Assembly (NCBI GenBank): GCA_030645295.1
Contig: JAUSMG010000398.1
Coordinates: 1-40,683 of the forward strand
Source: Saprospiraceae bacterium
GTDB taxonomy: Bacteria; Bacteroidota; Bacteroidia; Chitinophagales; Saprospiraceae
Reading direction: 5' to 3'
Length of the DNA stretch: 40,683 nucleotides
Positions 1,745-40,537 of this stretch are shown here, piece by piece. Below the pieces are notes generated by a model that did not search any database, was not told the DNA's origin, and worked only from the letters and a program-made list of their open reading frames with translations. Position 1 is the stretch's first letter. Every line of letters starts with the position of its first letter. A program made the translations under genes and the position numbers.

Positions 1745-3415
1745 ATGGCGAAAAAATCGACACCGCAATCCAATAAATCCGGCAAAAAAGAACCCACGGG
1801 CACTACAGATTCCACCGAAAAATGGCTTCCATGGGCTTTAGCCGGACTGGCTTTTATCCTGTACAGTACGGGCTTCGGCAACCAAATGGTGGGTATGGAC
1901 GACCACTCCGCTACTGTCGACAATCCTGCGGTCAAGGATTTTCTGATCTTTGGAGGCTTCAACCTCGGCATGTACGCCCCACTCACCTGGATCGGCTACC
2001 AAATATCGTACATCCTCGGTAAGGAGAGTCCTCAAATGTACCACCTCCTTTCCGCGCTGGTCCATGCCATCAACGTGGTGCTGGTGTTCAAACTCTTTCG
2101 TCGGTTGGATAGCAACGTGACGGTGTCGGCGTTAGTTGCCTTGTTTTTTGCCATCCACCCGCTCAATGTGGAGGCCGTCGCCTGGATCGCCGGGTTCAGT
2201 ACGCCGCTTTTTTCTATGTTCAGCCTGTTGGCGATGAACTATTATGTCCGGCACACCAAGGAAGAGGAGGGCGGTTTTGGCAAAAACTACTGGCATGCGC
2301 TCACCATGTTCCTGCTCGCCTGCCTGGCCAAATCGGCGGCAGTTACCCTGCCACTTACATTGCTCGTACTTGATTTGTGGAAAAAACGCGGCTTTTCACC
2401 GCGGGTGTTGCTTGAAAAAGCTCCGTTTTTCGCTATTTCACTTGGTTTTGGTCTCCTCACGCTCTACTCGCGTCAATACGCTGGCCAACTCGATCAGCCT
2501 GCCGATTTCACGATTTTTGATCGTGGCCTGATGGCTTGCCATACCGTGCTTTTTTATTGGAAAAAGTTACTCATGCCAACGGGTTTGAGCATCTGGTATC
2601 CATTTGAAAAAACAAATGGCGTCTGGAGCTGGGATTATTTAGCTGCGCCGGTTATCTTGTTCGGTATTCTCTTTGCCGCATGGCGAAGCCGACAGGCAAT
2701 GCCTTTGTTGTGGATCGGGATTTTGTTCTATTTGTCCAACATCGTGCTGTCACTCCCCTGGTCCACATTCGGAACCTTTGAATTGCGCTCTGATCGCTAC
2801 AACTACCTGGCCGGGCTCGGTATTTTTGTCATAATTGCTGCTTTGCCCGATTATTTGAAAGAAAAACGCCCCTCCTGGTCTGGCGCCGCCTGGGCCGTGA
2901 TCCTGGGACTGGCCTTTATTTGGCTCGTCACCTCTGCCCTCCGCATCCGCGATTGGAAAGACACGATGACCCTGATCGACAAGGCAATAGCCGCCACCGG
3001 CGACAATCATGGCAAAGCTTATCTCTGGCGCGGAATGGCCTACGGCAAGGCCAGTGATGCGCAAAAAGCCATCAAAGATTTCAGCCTTGCCTTGCAGAAA
3101 AACGATGAGCTCTACGAGGCCTACAAATTCAGGGGCAATATTTTTGGGATGATGAAAAACTACGAGCAATCAGTGACCGACCTCACAAAATTTCTGGAAC
3201 ATTACCCAATTGAAGTGCCTGAATTGTACTACCGTGGACTTTACTACGCCAATCTTGAACGCAACCAGGAAGCAGTTGCCGATTTTAACCGCGCATTGGA
3301 ATTGGATTCCACTTTTGCACGGGTCTATCGCGCACGGGGCAATTGCTATCTGAAATTGGGTGAAACGGAGAAGGGAAATGCAGATCTGGCGAAGTGGGAG
3401 AGTATGCCGAAGTAG
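1745..3415 (+). CDS. Multi-spanning GT-C-type membrane protein with C-terminal TPRs (TMTC-like)
   Basis: 556 residues. After a charged cytosolic start (residues 1-27) come about ten hydrophobic segments up to ~residue 400. The first periplasmic loop has the acidic pair in GMDDHSATVDNPAV (residues 50-63), the position of the catalytic acidic residues in GT-C transferases. The stretch FFAIHPLNVEAVAWIAG (~134-150) is typical of TPR-linked TMTC-like proteins. Residues ~415-550 contain at least three tetratricopeptide units (KAYLWRGMAYGKASDAQKAI; LYEAYKFRGNIF; ARVYRARGNCYLKLGETEKG). The family is thought to move sugars from polyprenyl-phosphate donors onto acceptors; acceptor and sugar are unknown here. 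Single gene, convergent with nadB. Confidence 0.8.
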   Translation: MAKKSTPQSNKSGKKEPTGTTDSTEKWLPWALAGLAFILYSTGFGNQMVGMDDHSATVDNPAVKDFLIFGGFNLGMYAPLTWIGYQISYILGKESPQMYHLLSALVHAINVVLVFKLFRRLDSNVTVSALVALFFAIHPLNVEAVAWIAGFSTPLFSMFSLLAMNYYVRHTKEEEGGFGKNYWHALTMFLLACLAKSAAVTLPLTLLVLDLWKKRGFSPRVLLEKAPFFAISLGFGLLTLYSRQYAGQLDQPADFTIFDRGLMACHTVLFYWKKLLMPTGLSIWYPFEKTNGVWSWDYLAAPVILFGILFAAWRSRQAMPLLWIGILFYLSNIVLSLPWSTFGTFELRSDRYNYLAGLGIFVIIAALPDYLKEKRPSWSGAAWAVILGLAFIWLVTSALRIRDWKDTMTLIDKAIAATGDNHGKAYLWRGMAYGKASDAQKAIKDFSLALQKNDELYEAYKFRGNIFGMMKNYEQSVTDLTKFLEHYPIEVPELYYRGLYYANLERNQEAVADFNRALELDSTFARVYRARGNCYLKLGETEKGNADLAKWESMPK

Positions 3416-3420
3416 GGATT

Positions 3421-3502
3421 TTGGACTGTAGGACATTGGACTGTAGGACATTGACTGGTGGACAGTCCAATGTCCAATGTCCAATATCCAACAGTCCCAC
3501 AG
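3421..3502. terminator. Repeat-rich hairpin between convergent genes (likely two-way terminator)
   Basis: A perfect tandem 15-mer, TTGGACTGTAGGACA, occurs at 3421-3435 and 3436-3450. It is followed by inverted copies in the form TCCAATG and CAGTCCC. GGACATTGGAC (3431-3441) pairs perfectly with GTCCAATGTCC (3465-3475). The tract fills the gap between the stop codons of the TPR membrane protein and nadB, so a terminator for both strands is plausible. No clear U-tract follows. Confidence 0.5.
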
Positions 3503-3505
3503 TCC

Positions 3506-5116
3506 CTAAAGCACCGAATACTCCACAAACGGCAGTTGCTCCGGATAGTCCGTGGTATAATGTAAACCCCGGCTTTCGCGGCGGTGCGAGGCCGAACGGG
3601 TGATGAGGTAGGCTACGGTGATAAGGTTGCGAAGTTCCATCAATTGGGGACTGATGGTGGTGGTTTTGTAGAGTTCCTCCGTTTCCTGATAAAGCAGGTA
3701 AAGGCGATCAAGCGCCCGTTTTAAACGCACATTGGAGCGCACTATGCCGACATAATAGGACATGATGTCGCGCAATTCCTTCAACCCTTGGGTAATAAGC
3801 ACCATTTCCATCGGATCTGTAGTGCCTTCGGCATTCCAGTCGGGAACACCTTCCTGAAATTCCCAACCGTCCAATTTCCCCACAAGGTCGTGTGCCACCC
3901 GATGGGCAAACACCATGCCTTCGAGCAAGGAATTGGATGCAAGCCGGTTTGCGCCATGCAAGCCTGTGCTCGTACACTCACCCGCTGCATACAACCGATG
4001 GATACTGGTATGCCCGTATTGGTCCACCAATACGCCGCCACAGGTGTAATGGCAGGCCGGAACGATCGGGATCATGGCTGTCATCGGGTCTATGCCGATA
4101 CTTTTGCACTTTTCATAAATGGTGGGAAAGTGCGCCAGAAATCCTTCTTTATCCAAATGACGGCAGTCCAGATACATACATTCTGTACCTCGTTTTTTCA
4201 TTTCCGAGTCAATGGCACGGGCTACTATGTCGCGTGGCGCAAGGGAAAGACGAGGGTCGTAATGCTGCATAAACTCCTCACCCTCAGCCGTTTTTAAGAT
4301 TCCGCCAAAGCCCCGCACGGCCTCTGAAACAAGAAAGGAAGGGTTATCGCCCGCCGGGTTGTAGAGGGATGTAGGGTGAAACTGAATGAATTCCATGCCT
4401 TCCACCCGGCCTTTGGCACGGTAGGCCATCGCTACCCCGTCGCCGGTGGCAATGACCGGATTGGTCGTGGATTTGTAGACCTGTCCGGCTCCGCCGGTGC
4501 AGAGCACTGTCACCCGGGCCAGGATGGTATCAATGTCGCCATTTTGCTTGTTGAGCGCATAACAACCATAGCATTCAATGCCCGGTGTGACGCGGATCAC
4601 CATGCGCCCCAGATGGTGCTGCGTGATGAGATCAAGGGCAAAGCAGTGTTCGGATATGGTGATGTTGGAATATTTTTTGGCCTCTTCCATGAGGGTGCGC
4701 TGCATTTCCCAGCCGGTCAGATCTTTGTAGTGGAGGATTCGGTGCTCGGAGTGGCCGCCTTCCCGGGCAAGATCGTAATCCGTAGAGCCTTTTTCTTTGT
4801 CAAAATGCGCGCCCCAGCCAATGATCTCGCGAACCCGTTCGGGGCCTTCTTCCACTACAATGCGCACAATATCCTCTTTGCATAGACCATCGCCCGCATC
4901 CAAAGTATCCGCAATGTGCTTTTCAAAATTGTCTTTTTCAAGATCCCACACGGCGGCCACTCCTCCCTGGGCATAGCGGGTATTGCTTTCGCCCTCCACC
5001 GTTTTGGTGAGTACAAGTATTTGTCGATCAGAAAATAAGCGGGAAGCCTTGATGGCAAAGGTCAGTCCGGCGATGCCGGAGCCGAGTACGAGGATGTCTG
5101 TTTGGGTGCGTGTCAT
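3506..5116 (-). CDS. nadB: L-aspartate oxidase
   Basis: 536 residues from the ATG before TRTQTDILVLGSG; the frame is open further upstream, but the FAD-binding beta strand should sit near the N-terminus. Oxidises L-aspartate to iminoaspartate, the first step of de novo NAD synthesis, in the cytosol with FAD. Seen: the dinucleotide-binding GSGIAG (12-17), RYAQGGVAAV, the family stretch EGGHSEHRILHYKDLTGWEM, HPTSLYNPAG, LAPRDIVARAID, and the FAD-binding end GECTSTGLHGANRLASNSLL. A fumarate-reductase-type C-terminal helical domain follows. Length is normal. The quinolinate synthase partner nadA is not in this window. Succinate dehydrogenase SdhA is the main look-alike, but length and the RLASNSLLE block favour NadB. 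Confidence 0.96.
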   Translation of the reverse strand: MTRTQTDILVLGSGIAGLTFAIKASRLFSDRQILVLTKTVEGESNTRYAQGGVAAVWDLEKDNFEKHIADTLDAGDGLCKEDIVRIVVEEGPERVREIIGWGAHFDKEKGSTDYDLAREGGHSEHRILHYKDLTGWEMQRTLMEEAKKYSNITISEHCFALDLITQHHLGRMVIRVTPGIECYGCYALNKQNGDIDTILARVTVLCTGGAGQVYKSTTNPVIATGDGVAMAYRAKGRVEGMEFIQFHPTSLYNPAGDNPSFLVSEAVRGFGGILKTAEGEEFMQHYDPRLSLAPRDIVARAIDSEMKKRGTECMYLDCRHLDKEGFLAHFPTIYEKCKSIGIDPMTAMIPIVPACHYTCGGVLVDQYGHTSIHRLYAAGECTSTGLHGANRLASNSLLEGMVFAHRVAHDLVGKLDGWEFQEGVPDWNAEGTTDPMEMVLITQGLKELRDIMSYYVGIVRSNVRLKRALDRLYLLYQETEELYKTTTISPQLMELRNLITVAYLITRSASHRRESRGLHYTTDYPEQLPFVEYSVL

Positions 5117-37162: not shown

Positions 37163-37270
37163 TTCAGAAGAAAAGTCTTGCATGTTCGAGAAATGTCCAA
37201 TATATTTGAATCCTAAAGTATTGGCTTTCTTTGTTTTTTATCATAAACCGCTCCTTTGACATGAAAACAG

Positions 37271-37340
<70 letters not shown>

Positions 37341-37526
37341 TGAGCCTCCAAAGTTCGCCTTTTTCGTTGATTTATGCAAGTGTCAGAACGGAAAAAACTC
37401 CGCCTATGACCCCATGGCTTTCTCATAGCCTCGATATTCCCTTACTGTGACGGCTTTACTATTTGGATTTCGAAGTCTCGTTCGAAATTTACATAATCAA
37501 TTATTCTCAAGCACCAAAAATACGCC

Positions 37527-39782
37527 ATGTCCCCCAGTTTCCCCTTTTACCGACAACGCGATGCCATGGATTGCGGCCCAACCTGCCTGATGATGGCCGC
37601 CGCCGCGCATGGCCGACAATATCCCTTGACTTACTTGAGAGAACGCAGTTACCTGAGCCGCCAAGGCGTATCTGCGCTGGGCATCATGGAAGCCGCAGAG
37701 GCCATTGGATTTCGGGCTATGACCGTAAAAGTGCCCTTTGACACAGGCGAGGATACCGCTTGCCTGTTGAATGCCCCGCTTCCTTGCATCGCGCACTGGA
37801 ATCAGCAGCATTTTGTAGTTATTTATAAAGTCAACCGCCACCATATCTGGATCGCAGACCCTGGTGCAGGAAAATTCAAACTTACTCGGAAAGACTTTGA
37901 AAAATCATGGCTGAGCGATGCCGATCAGGGAGTTTTGATCCTTTTGGAGCCTACCCCAGCGTTTTACCAACGGGATAGCGTTCCATCAGACAAAAAAGCC
38001 CGTTTCGGCGTTTTATTGGAATATGTGCGCCCCCACCGACGCTTGATTTCACAGTTGCTTATCGGTATGGCTTTGGGTAGTCTGCTGATGCTCATTTTTC
38101 CCTTGTTAACGCAGAGCATCGTTGATTTTGGCATTGACAACCACAACATCGGCTTTATTTACCTGGTATTGCTGGCCCAATTGATGTTGTTTTTTAGCCA
38201 AATCGTCGTGCAGTTTCTGCAAAGCCGGATTTTGTTGTTCATCGGTACTCGGATCAATGTCTCCATGGTCAGCGACTTTTTGGCAAAACTGATGCGCCTA
38301 CCCATTGGCTTTTTCGACACTAAGATGACGGGCGACCTTATGCAACGCATTGGCGATCAGGGGCGAATCGAAGCTTTCCTGACACAGTCTGCGCTGCCCG
38401 TAATGTTTTCAGCCTTCAACTTCGTGGTGTTCAGCGCCATCCTCTTGCTGTATAATGTCACGATTTTTGGCGTTTTTGCTTTAGCGGCTGCCCTTTATAT
38501 CACCTGGATCGCATTTTTTCTGCGCCGTCGCAAAGAGTTGGATTATACACGCTTCCGGCAGGCGGGTGAAAACAACAACACCCTCATCGAATTGATACAA
38601 GGAATGCAGGAGATCAAATTGCAGGGTTCGGAGCGGAAGCGGCGCTGGTTATGGGCAGGCATTCAAGCGCAACTCTTTCACACCAGCCTCCGTTCACTCA
38701 ACCTGGCCCAGTGGCAGGAAGCAGGCGCGGGTTTTATCAACCAAAGCAAAAATATCATCATAATCTTCCTTGCCGCCAAATCCGTAATAGACGGACAGAT
38801 GACCCTCGGGATGATGCTGGCCACCCAGTATATGGTGGGGCAGCTGGATGCTCCCTTACAGCAGTTTATCACCTTTATCCGTTCCGCGCAAGATGCTAAA
38901 ATCAGCTTGGAACGCATGAATGAGATACACGAGGTACAGGATGAGGGAGCTTCTACTTTACATGCCTTTGCGCAGCGCATATCTTCCCCCTCTGAAGGAG
39001 ACCAGAAGCGCGCTGCCATCCATCTTGAAAACCTTTCCTTCCGCTACAATACCTTGCATGATGACGTACTCAAAGACATCAATCTCTGTATTCCGCAAGG
39101 TAAGATCACGGCCATTGTGGGCACCAGCGGCAGCGGCAAAACCACCTTGTTAAAACTCCTTTTGGGCTTTTATCAACCTACTAAAGGAAATATCAGTATT
39201 GGCGCTACTCCGCTGGCCTCCATAAACCCTGCTGAATGGCGCAAATGCTGCGGTACCGTCATGCAAGACGGTTTTATTTTTTCGGATACCATCGCCAATA
39301 ACATTGCAGAATGCGACGAATATCCAGACAATGCCAAATTGCTCCATGCGGTAGACATGGGGAATATTCGCTCCTTCATTGATACACTTCCGCTCCGGTA
39401 TAATACCAAAATTGGGGCGCAAGGCAACGGTATCAGCCAGGGACAGCGCCAGCGTTTATTGATTGCACGAGCCGTTTACAAAAACCCGGAATACCTGTTC
39501 TTTGATGAGGCTACCAATGCTCTGGATGCCAATAACGAACGGGCCATTGTGGAGAACTTGCAATCGTTTTATCGTTCCCCCTCTCCACTGGGGATGGGCC
39601 GTGATGGGGCAGCTAAAACCGTTGTCATTGTGGCACACCGCCTGAGCACTGTACGCCATGCTGACCAGATTGTGGTACTAGAAAATGGCAGTATTGTAGA
39701 ACAAGGTACGCATGATACATTGGTGGCCAGAAGAGGGGCCTACTATGATTTGGTAAAAAATCAGCTGGAACTTGGCTCATGA
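37527..39782 (+). CDS. Peptidase-containing ABC transporter (C39; double-glycine peptide exporter)
   Basis: 751 residues. It should cut a leader after Gly-Gly and export the released peptide across the inner membrane. C39 peptidase at ~8-130: Gln10, catalytic Cys16 in MDCGPTC, His95 in NQQHFVV and Asp111 in IADPGAG. Exporter membrane domain at ~165-460 with six helices. ATPase at ~500-751: Walker A GTSGSGKT (532-539), a degenerate signature ISQGQRQ (636-642), FFDEATNALDA and the switch His704 in VAHRLSTVR. Two short linker insertions look atypical: SSPSEGDQ (~484-491) and SPSPLGMGRDG (684-694). No HlyD-like adaptor follows in the window. The HTH gene and a precursor peptide lie directly downstream. 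Confidence 0.94.
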   Translation: MSPSFPFYRQRDAMDCGPTCLMMAAAAHGRQYPLTYLRERSYLSRQGVSALGIMEAAEAIGFRAMTVKVPFDTGEDTACLLNAPLPCIAHWNQQHFVVIYKVNRHHIWIADPGAGKFKLTRKDFEKSWLSDADQGVLILLEPTPAFYQRDSVPSDKKARFGVLLEYVRPHRRLISQLLIGMALGSLLMLIFPLLTQSIVDFGIDNHNIGFIYLVLLAQLMLFFSQIVVQFLQSRILLFIGTRINVSMVSDFLAKLMRLPIGFFDTKMTGDLMQRIGDQGRIEAFLTQSALPVMFSAFNFVVFSAILLLYNVTIFGVFALAAALYITWIAFFLRRRKELDYTRFRQAGENNNTLIELIQGMQEIKLQGSERKRRWLWAGIQAQLFHTSLRSLNLAQWQEAGAGFINQSKNIIIIFLAAKSVIDGQMTLGMMLATQYMVGQLDAPLQQFITFIRSAQDAKISLERMNEIHEVQDEGASTLHAFAQRISSPSEGDQKRAAIHLENLSFRYNTLHDDVLKDINLCIPQGKITAIVGTSGSGKTTLLKLLLGFYQPTKGNISIGATPLASINPAEWRKCCGTVMQDGFIFSDTIANNIAECDEYPDNAKLLHAVDMGNIRSFIDTLPLRYNTKIGAQGNGISQGQRQRLLIARAVYKNPEYLFFDEATNALDANNERAIVENLQSFYRSPSPLGMGRDGAAKTVVIVAHRLSTVRHADQIVVLENGSIVEQGTHDTLVARRGAYYDLVKNQLELGS

Positions 39783-39809
39783 CCCATAATATTCATTATT
39801 CCAAAAACT

Positions 39810-40145
39810 ATGAACATCTTCACCGATCTTTTCCTGCTCCAAAGGATTGACAACCTCATACGTACCCGTGCCACAGGCACCCCAATCCAACTTGCAGAGC
39901 GACTGGGTATCAGCGAACGCAAGCTCTACCGATTGATGGGCGACTTCCGTGATCAGGGCTTTCCGATTGCTTATGACAAGCAGGCGGACACCTATTATTA
40001 TTCCGAACTAGTGAAAATTGAGTTTTCAATCCTGGTAGGACAGGAAAATCTGATGACGATCCGGGGCGGCGAAAAAAAGTTTGATATTTTTTCTGGACTG
40101 ACGGATTTTGGCAGGGAGTGGCCGGACTTTTGTAATGCTTCCTGA
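39810..40145 (+). CDS. Small HTH (DeoR/WYL N-terminal-like) regulator
   Basis: 111 residues. A winged-helix motif at ~8-66: LQRIDNLIRTRATGTPIQLA, ERLGISERKLYRLMGDFRDQ (recognition helix), then the wing FPIAYDKQADTYYYS. The C-terminus, KKFDIFSGLTDFG and beyond, has no sensor domain. Such stand-alone HTH proteins are frequent beside peptide-export ABC transporters in Bacteroidota. It starts 27 bp after the exporter stop, so it is co-transcribed. It is the natural candidate to bind the inverted repeats before the exporter, as inference. The peptide gene begins 115 bp downstream. Confidence 0.8.
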   Translation: MNIFTDLFLLQRIDNLIRTRATGTPIQLAERLGISERKLYRLMGDFRDQGFPIAYDKQADTYYYSELVKIEFSILVGQENLMTIRGGEKKFDIFSGLTDFGREWPDFCNAS

Positions 40146-40179
40146 TCTTTTGCAGTTCGCGCGAGTGATAGGTTGGGAG

Positions 40180-40201
40180 GCCGGGAATATTCCTACCCGG
40201 C
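40180..40201 (+). other. Small hairpin between the regulator and peptide genes
   Basis: GCCGGG (40180-40185) and CCCGGC (40196-40201) form a six-bp G/C stem with a ten-base loop, in the 115-bp gap. It may be an attenuator or an mRNA-stabilising stem. No U-run. Confidence 0.35.
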
Positions 40202-40260
40202 TCGAATCTGTGAGGAGGAGGGCGATTGAAAAGAGGGAAGGTGTTTTCAATTTTATTATT

Positions 40261-40497
40261 ATGAATTTCGAAAAAATTTCGAACAAAAAATTTGCAGCCT
40301 TTAAGCAAAGTGAAGTGGTCAATCCAATTTTAATATCTGGCGGTTGGACTGATACTGATGCGGGTGGTGATCATGATCGGTTTCAAGCCACAGGAGCAGT
40401 AACTGATTACCAACAGACTGGTGATGGATCAACATTTACACAAGATCAACAAACTAGCAACGACTCAGGCGATACCAATAATGGACCTGGGTATTGA
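40261..40497 (+). CDS. Double-glycine-leader precursor peptide (bacteriocin/RiPP-like)
   Basis: 78 residues from the ATG before NFEKISNKKFAAFKQ; the frame is open upstream but without gene-like content. The leader (1-28) has the pattern of Bacteroidota GG-type natural-product precursors: basic and hydrophobic, KKFAAFKQSEV, then NPILISGG. Cleavage after Gly28 by the C39 domain encoded 2 kb upstream would release a 50-residue core starting WTDTDAGG. The core has no Cys and no Lys, about nine Asp, many Thr/Ser/Gln/Gly, and ends NNGPGY. It contains a loose duplication: DYQQTGDGSTFTQ and DQQTSNDSGDT. No modification enzyme is visible. It could be an unmodified toxin, a signal, or a substrate of an enzyme outside the window. 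Confidence 0.75.
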   Translation: MNFEKISNKKFAAFKQSEVVNPILISGGWTDTDAGGDHDRFQATGAVTDYQQTGDGSTFTQDQQTSNDSGDTNNGPGY

Positions 40498-40504
40498 TGT
40501 TGAA

Positions 40505-40537
40505 TTTCAGGTTTATATAGGATTATAAAACCTGAAA
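40505..40537 (+). terminator. Hairpin after the precursor peptide gene
   Basis: TTTCAGGTTT (40505-40514) pairs perfectly with AAACCTGAAA (40528-40537), with a 13-base loop, seven bases after the peptide stop. No U-tract follows, but position and symmetry suit an end of the cassette transcript. Confidence 0.55.

Follow-up and report, generated by a model that had tools for sequence, protein, structure and literature searches.

The window analysed here is 40,683 nucleotides long and comprises the entire contig JAUSMG010000398.1 (G000:C255 in our numbering) of the Saprospiraceae bacterium assembly GCA_030645295.1. Three genes on the forward strand close this contig, encoding a C39 peptidase-containing ATP-binding cassette (ABC) exporter, a short winged helix-turn-helix (HTH) protein and a small peptide with a double-glycine (GG) leader. 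Behind its DNA-binding-type domain the HTH protein carries a GG leader signature of its own, and this motif is associated with C39 genes across Bacteroidota.

Genes at the contig end and their relatives

The genes and the adjoining hairpin are as follows.

37527-39782, forward strand: C39 peptidase-containing ABC exporter, 751 residues (PF03412, PF00664 and PF00005 in Pfam, above cut-off)
39810-40145, forward strand: short winged-HTH protein, 111 residues, with a C-terminal double-glycine leader signature
40261-40497, forward strand: putative graspetide-type precursor, 78 residues (leader 1-28 ending ISGG, core 29-78)
40505-40537, forward strand: hairpin 3' of the peptide gene, an inverted repeat

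In the exporter, a C39 domain with catalytic Cys, His and Asp is fused to an ABC transporter, as in C39 peptidase-containing exporters, and matches to it at E<=1e-100 were found in 43 of 60 genomes, its own included. The original prediction, made from the sequence of the window alone, had placed the three genes on one strand with gaps of 27 bp (exporter to HTH gene) and 115 bp (HTH gene to peptide gene), had called the C39 triad Cys16, His95 and Asp111 intact and had read ISGG at the end of the last gene's leader; all of this holds, and Q10 is present as well. It also had the genes end in a hairpin. The inverted repeat is indeed there, but no run of T follows it and the terminator scan output does not contain it. 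The contig ends 186 bp past the peptide stop, and no second copy of these 186 bp was found in the source genome at E<=0.01.

The precursor reads ...NPILISGG/WTDTD... at the end of its leader (the slash marks the candidate cut), with S-12, P-7, I-4 and GG, and its core of 50 residues contains 12 Thr/Ser and 9 Asp but neither Lys nor Cys. Comparison with Pfam and NCBIfam gave no family at E<=1, and the known Bacteroidota precursor families PF14406, TIGR04139 and TIGR04149 gave no profile match. Among 298 genomes of the family, 67 had a match at E<=1, and by sequence alone only those in the source genome and in G254 are convincing, the latter lying at the same place with 58% identity (E 1.5e-16). 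A further homolog, in G306 (locus L067), could be aligned; together with that in G254, it bears out the conservation of the peptide frame beside homologous exporters that had been proposed as a check. In G015 a third match, a weak one (E 4.9e-4), begins 47 bp past an HTH gene that belongs to this HTH family, and C39, ATP-grasp and SPASM genes lie in its vicinity.

In the relatives L062, L066 and L067 the gene order is exporter, HTH gene, peptide gene, one further gene, ATP-grasp ligase, SPASM protein and HlyD-like protein; in the source genome the middle of this order is missing between contigs. The ligase scores above the TIGR04192 cut-off in all three relatives and the SPASM protein above that of TIGR04193 in L066 and L067, the gene being split in L062, where the HlyD-like gene falls below the curated cut-off. 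The source genome has a single such ATP-grasp match (E<=0.001), located on a separate contig, C214. This gene runs off the right contig end, so that about the first 50 residues are missing, and scores 269.4 bits against TIGR04192 (cut-off 230); inward of it lie a SPASM gene (439 residues; 333.8 bits against TIGR04193, cut-off 175) and an HlyD-like gene (435 residues). The window would thus most likely be the first half of a grasp-with-spasm (graspetide) cluster, with the missing half (ATP-grasp, SPASM and HlyD-like genes) most likely on C214 across an assembly gap; we infer the physical link between the contigs from this simplest reading of one interrupted cluster. The peptide would then probably be cross-linked before export, and the mature mass starting at Trp29, which the original prediction suggested looking for, would probably not be that of the bare peptide. 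The mark of a graspetide product is a ring formed by a side-chain ester or amide. A core rich in Thr/Ser and Asp and free of Lys and Cys would suit rings of the ester kind, as in graspetide chemistry (PMC13097080; the papers identified by PMC numbers are cited from excerpts). A contig end can in this way make a modified-peptide cluster look like a simple bacteriocin cassette.

The SPASM proteins of L066 (3034-4164), L067 (13313-14482) and L082 (9990-11309) keep a run of C-terminal cysteines, and the CxxxCxxC radical-SAM motif is absent in all three. The SPASM gene of L062 consists of two adjacent frames, 2523-3143 and 3222-3689 (206 and 155 residues), which suggests a frameshift or decay; only the 155-residue piece was matched to TIGR04193.

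Each of the eight closest loci (the window and L061-L067) has an exporter, an HTH gene and then a GG peptide, and the peptides differ. Behind a conserved exporter and HTH, the cargo cores of L061, L062, L064-L067 and L089 are wholly different (graspetide-like, Cys-rich or Gly/Thr-rich), as in a cargo-exchange site. In L063 (the place of L087), with its HTH at about 7388 on the minus strand, the HTH-GG frame continues into a protein of 463 residues with a signal-like stretch, which by eye resembles the secreted protein encoded downstream in L062 and L067. Other observations concern the exporter gene itself. Upstream of it the window has a perfect inverted repeat, ATTTCGAA-N6-TTCGAAAT, at 37467-37488 and a short tandem repeat of ATCCCGC at about 37265-37340; among 7 relatives, neither TTCGAA nor a 7-base repeat was found in the approximately 260 bp 5' of the exporter. 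A second C39-type exporter, with 55% identity, is encoded elsewhere in the source genome (G000:C3:3044-5224, L071).

The double-glycine signature of the HTH protein

The signature lies behind the predicted HTH domain.

40035-40070, forward strand: leader signature in the HTH gene, V-12 G Q E N L-7 M T I-4 R G G, with the GG codons at 40065-40070

Around the candidate cut site the HTH protein reads ...ILVGQENLMTIRGG/EKKFDIFSGLTDFGREWPDFCNAS, and V-12, L-7, I-4 and GG at -2/-1 together make up the signature of a C39 substrate. L81, I84, G86, G87 and E88 are invariant in all eight close members. The original prediction called the protein a regulator and overlooked both this signature and the promoter-like box in its 3' end (see below). 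In the C39 domain LahT, a groove takes up V-4, L-7 and L-12 of the leader; the residues past the cleavage site may vary, and 13 final leader residues are enough for a substrate to be cleaved (PMC6363468). Judged in this way, the HTH protein, with V-12, L-7, I-4 and GG, would be a better substrate than the precursor, with S-12, P-7, I-4 and GG.

The protein is the sole member of its HTH family in the source genome. Pfam HTH_11 (PF08279) matches 35 of 55 family members with a GG or AG tail at E<=0.001, the window member reaching only E 0.033, and no NCBIfam model matches more than 2 of the 55, those that match being generic regulators. AlphaFold2 (10 sequences) modelled residues 3-64 with confidence as a winged HTH; beyond it, the hairpin at 70-86 is weak and the end of the protein is disordered. 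A Foldseek search with this model returned nothing at E<=0.001, and the weak matches are mixed, with several DNA-binding regulators and other winged-HTH proteins, including DnaD and methyltransferases.

To see whether the tail goes with C39 genes, HTH proteins were searched for with residues 1-66 of the window protein (A2), which lack the GG, and the sequence that follows was then read. The first sample comprised 91 loci with 90 short HTHs, of which 7 were found via the exporter (those of the window, L061, L062 and L064-L067) and 3 + 80 via HTH searches; the 3 come from a locus search with the HTH as query, which gave 10 loci only, and the 80 places were taken from the upper part of the HTH match lists. 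L063 gives no HTH here because its HTH frame runs on into the long protein, and L167 was excluded from the HTH tree and the identity clusters. A GG lies within 30 residues of the HTH domain in 53 of the 90 (2000 shuffles: mean 15.8, highest 28). Leu, Ile, Val, Met or Phe stands at -4 in 49 of 53, the best GG being taken where two exist, and at -12 in 46 of 51, against a tail average of 34%. The GG codons vary at their third position while the glycines are kept.

In this sample, with GG or AG as the rule, a C39 gene lies within 4 kb of 45 of 56 tailed and 5 of 34 untailed HTHs, or 28 of 31 and 4 of 22 where 4 kb are present on both sides. The C39 triad reads intact in 42 of the 45, the other three rows being gapped or misaligned there. 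With one HTH per 50%-identity cluster and full flanks, the counts are 11 of 13 and 1 of 10; a looser count (13 of 14 and 1 of 10) was set aside, since it kept loci with short flanks only if a C39 gene was found. The rule for a tail was also varied: a hydrophobic residue at -4 gives 44 of 55 versus 6 of 35, and plain GG gives 42 of 53 versus 8 of 37. Without the seven exporter-found HTHs, L084 and L089, and with 4 kb on both sides, it is 22 of 25 versus 5 of 23.

The second sample (40 loci, 41 HTHs; 34 of the 40 places newly searched and 6 unused from earlier lists) was held out in part, in that the tail had already been seen for 7 of the 40, including 4 of the 8 GG-tailed, whereas the neighbourhoods had not. 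By plain GG, a C39 gene lies within 4 kb of 5 of 8 tailed and 2 of 33 untailed HTHs (Fisher 0.0014); by GG or AG the counts are 6 of 9 and 1 of 32, or 4 of 7 and 1 of 22 with 4 kb on both sides. The association also holds within genomes: among 11 genomes with both kinds of HTH, only the tailed copy has C39 nearby in 9, there is no difference in 2 and the reverse was seen in none. In five of the nine (G254, G247, G218, G494 and G125) both flanks of the untailed copy reach 4 kb; in the others this copy is closer to a contig end. L173 and L229, whose GG or AG is not leader-like, were set as untailed by hand in the tree, the clusters and this comparison; with the rule applied literally, G125 would leave the set.

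In L285, L288 and L289 (the places of L146, L145 and L147) EIFGG is followed by a conserved ...LDGT(L/I)ISLL, the best candidate for an exported HTH tail, and in L290 the HTH ends exactly at the GG.

Candidate DNA signals at the end of the HTH gene

Three further features lie in the 3' part of this gene and in the gap behind it.

40098-40114, forward strand: candidate operator palindrome CTGACGGATTTTGGCAG in the 3' end of the HTH gene, imperfect here
40125-40132, forward strand: GACTTTTG, candidate -7 box of a promoter for the peptide gene, likewise in the HTH gene's 3' end
40180-40201, forward strand: GC hairpin ahead of the peptide start, in the 5' untranslated region; relatives have a similar one as read by eye

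In an alignment of relatives, CTGCCA-N5-TGGCAG is followed by GANNTTTG or TAAATTTG and then by the hairpin before the peptide start. The box GANNTTTG/TAAATTTG resembles what we take to be the -7 box of Bacteroidota promoters, and the same presumed consensus underlies the candidate in the window. A palindrome with arms of at least 6 followed by [TG]AnnTTTG occurs at 19 of 54 tailed loci (mean 0.18 and highest 2 in 100 plain shuffles). Of the 240-nt regions, 10 of 55 tailed and 3 of 35 untailed ones contain the consensus TGC(C/A)A-N3-7-T(G/T)GCA, the background being 0.006-0.008 per 240 nt. In L067, a single sequence, two palindrome pairs are changed on both sides.

Codon changes were compared in 13 close pairs. 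In the HTH part, the proportion of nonsynonymous differences (pN) is low, at 0.006-0.18, and the synonymous difference is saturated in 8 pairs. After the GG codons the synonymous difference is lower than in the HTH part in 12 of the 13 (0.12-0.56), and the ratio of nonsynonymous to synonymous change (dN/dS) is 0.31-1.35; these synonymous counts rest on 13-30 codons and on related pairs, which lessens their weight. Such a lowering is what an overlapping signal at the DNA level would leave. An operator, together with a promoter for the gene that follows, is thus probably located at the end of the HTH gene in a large part of the window's clade and at some distant loci.

In this region Rfam gave no family at its gathering score and four matches below it (best E 0.095); that of DUF3800-VI on the 5' hairpin (21.9 bits, gathering 35) is not claimed. 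By eye, a GC hairpin CGGG..CCCG is also apparent ahead of the cargo gene, within its 5' untranslated region, in L061, L062, L064 and L084.

Interpretation and comparison with known systems

The explanation that we favour joins half a graspetide cluster to a regulator that mimics a leader and is read by the C39 domain; as a whole, it could equally well prove right or wrong. The precursor would be bound via its leader and cross-linked by the ATP-grasp ligase with the SPASM protein, and the C39 domain would cut it after Gly28, the product being exported. The HTH protein would be a local regulator, and the palindrome that it binds would overlie the precursor promoter at the 3' end of the HTH gene itself. 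The C-terminal tail of the protein would imitate a GG leader, so that the C39 domain of the exporter binds or cleaves it: with export capacity to spare, the regulator would be captured or trimmed, a build-up of precursor would compete for this C39 groove, and cargo transcription would thereby be matched to export capacity. Most likely, C39 would bind or cut the tail and in this way couple precursor transcription to export, and the signal to produce peptide may thus come from the exporter itself. Gene content, the motif, its association with C39 genes and, in relatives, the palindrome with the promoter-like box are observed; the remaining parts of this account, including DNA binding and the direction of the feedback, are inferences. 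The broader proposal, that a widespread class of Bacteroidota regulators are ligands or substrates of peptide exporters, each a winged-HTH leader mimic read, and perhaps cut, by the C39 domain of the adjacent exporter, which would also act as a sensor and set the transcription of its frequently exchanged cargo genes, seems plausible to us, with the balance tilting slightly against it.

Several observations weigh against a coupling of this kind. The palindrome and box also follow 9 of 35 untailed HTHs (a count made without shuffles), which speaks for a regulator and not for exporter coupling; the window itself is outside the 19 loci, as its palindrome contains two mismatches at the DNA level, and in L065, which belongs to this clade, neither element is seen. 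No such HTH follows the two exporters that come next in similarity, L068 and L069. Tailed HTHs without C39 within 4 kb make up 11 of 56 in the first sample, some of them at contig ends, and 3 of 9 in the second (L262, L289 and L290), and untailed HTHs beside C39 exist (L174, L198, L200 and L286). The HTH tree (66 columns) is poorly resolved, with two supported pairs, and the independence of the association is not separable in it. A hydrophobic residue at -7 is found in only 22 of 51 GG-tailed HTHs, against the tail average of 34%. Finally, AlphaFold2 places a weak strand and no helix at 79-86 (block pLDDT 62 and 47), whereas the LahT-bound leader is helical; the model is compatible with a helical or a non-helical bound tail.

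If the HTH protein were itself the precursor, its HTH would serve as leader and the residues after the GG as an exported signal peptide released by C39. Most of these tails are 11-32 residues long, which is the size of peptide pheromones, and they are conserved inside some subclades, for example as LDGT-I-S-LL in L285, L288 and L289. Family-wide, they are slightly more alike than shuffled tails (mean local score 15.1 versus 14.2, above all 20 shuffles). However, this excess is small, some tails have just 1-2 residues (L157, next to a C39 gene, is such a case), and in the window's clade tail conservation coincides with the promoter-like box and low synonymous change, which leaves such a precursor rather unlikely. 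An ordinary local regulator, whose GG is a chance or structural feature unlinked to C39, is unlikely as well, although the HTH family is widespread with many members that lack GG, and shared ancestry as the cause of the C39 association is compatible with the HTH tree. That association appears in two samples and within genomes, and the glycines are kept while their codons vary.

RiPP (ribosomally synthesized and post-translationally modified peptide) recognition elements are winged-HTH domains, and in view of its modelled winged-HTH fold the protein might be no DNA-binding regulator and act instead, like such elements in other peptide pathways (touched on in PMC10352776), as a leader-binding partner or chaperone of the maturation enzymes. 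The same HTH family is found at C39 loci without the two tested maturation families, however, a palindrome and box follow the HTH gene, and the structure matches are weak (none at E<=0.001) and mixed; we consider this role quite improbable. The original prediction, a complete three-gene cassette exporting an unmodified bacteriocin-like peptide, was right in that exporter and GG-leader precursor match and belong together. Completeness is contradicted by close relatives with the same precursor, which have ATP-grasp and SPASM genes one gene further on, and by the matching maturation pieces at the end of C214 in the source genome; the complete cassette was rejected on these grounds and now appears very improbable.

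To our knowledge, little is known about the control of peptide clusters in Bacteroidota. A regulator tagged for the exporter would, if true, connect export to transcription in a directly testable way and help to explain why exporter and HTH are retained as the cargo is exchanged. The HTH tail could also be used as a marker for finding precursor clusters.

Grasp-with-spasm clusters (TIGR04192/TIGR04193), though little studied, are already known as branch 5 of PMC8939145 and group 14 of PMC13097080, and, as here, combine ATP-grasp, SPASM and GG-leader precursor genes, with a C39 exporter and HlyD commonly associated. The typical regulator of branch 5 is an OmpR-type response regulator, in contrast to the short GG-tailed HTH of the present locus, and the excerpts of both papers describe no HTH protein with a GG tail for these clusters. 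Unlike the known precursors, that of the window fits no Pfam or NCBIfam model at E<=1. With C39 exporters of the LahT/PCAT type (PMC6363468), the present exporter shares Gln, Cys, His and Asp and the Q-C and H-D spacing; the substrate signature at -12, -7, -4, -2 and -1 is likewise shared, but its better fit here sits in a DNA-binding-type protein. Short HTH_11 winged-helix proteins have the HTH domain in common with the tailed family (PF08279, 35 of 55), which differs in its C-terminal extension with the leader signature. Tailed proteins have 88-138 residues and untailed ones 70-100; cutting behind the GG would give a protein that resembles an untailed HTH.

None of the titles or abstract beginnings of the open-licence papers listed, among them 30 of 89,005 and 20 of 84 matching papers, concerned a GG-tailed HTH protein or transcription factor, which does not establish its absence from print. 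An HTH gene occurs in one Bacteroidales cluster, BGC3, which has no C39 exporter, and the excerpt of PMC10352776 describes no GG tail for it. It has been raised as an open question whether C39 exporters in Gram-negative bacteria have roles other than toxin export (PMC10986499). In HetC-HetP of Nostoc, as here, a C39 exporter gene lies next to that of a regulatory protein, although the protein families differ and no double-glycine gene was found near hetC according to the excerpt of that paper. The question posed there is whether the C39 exporter can export HetP-derived peptides (PMC10986499), and HetC-HetP is the nearest published idea to a regulator tagged for its exporter.

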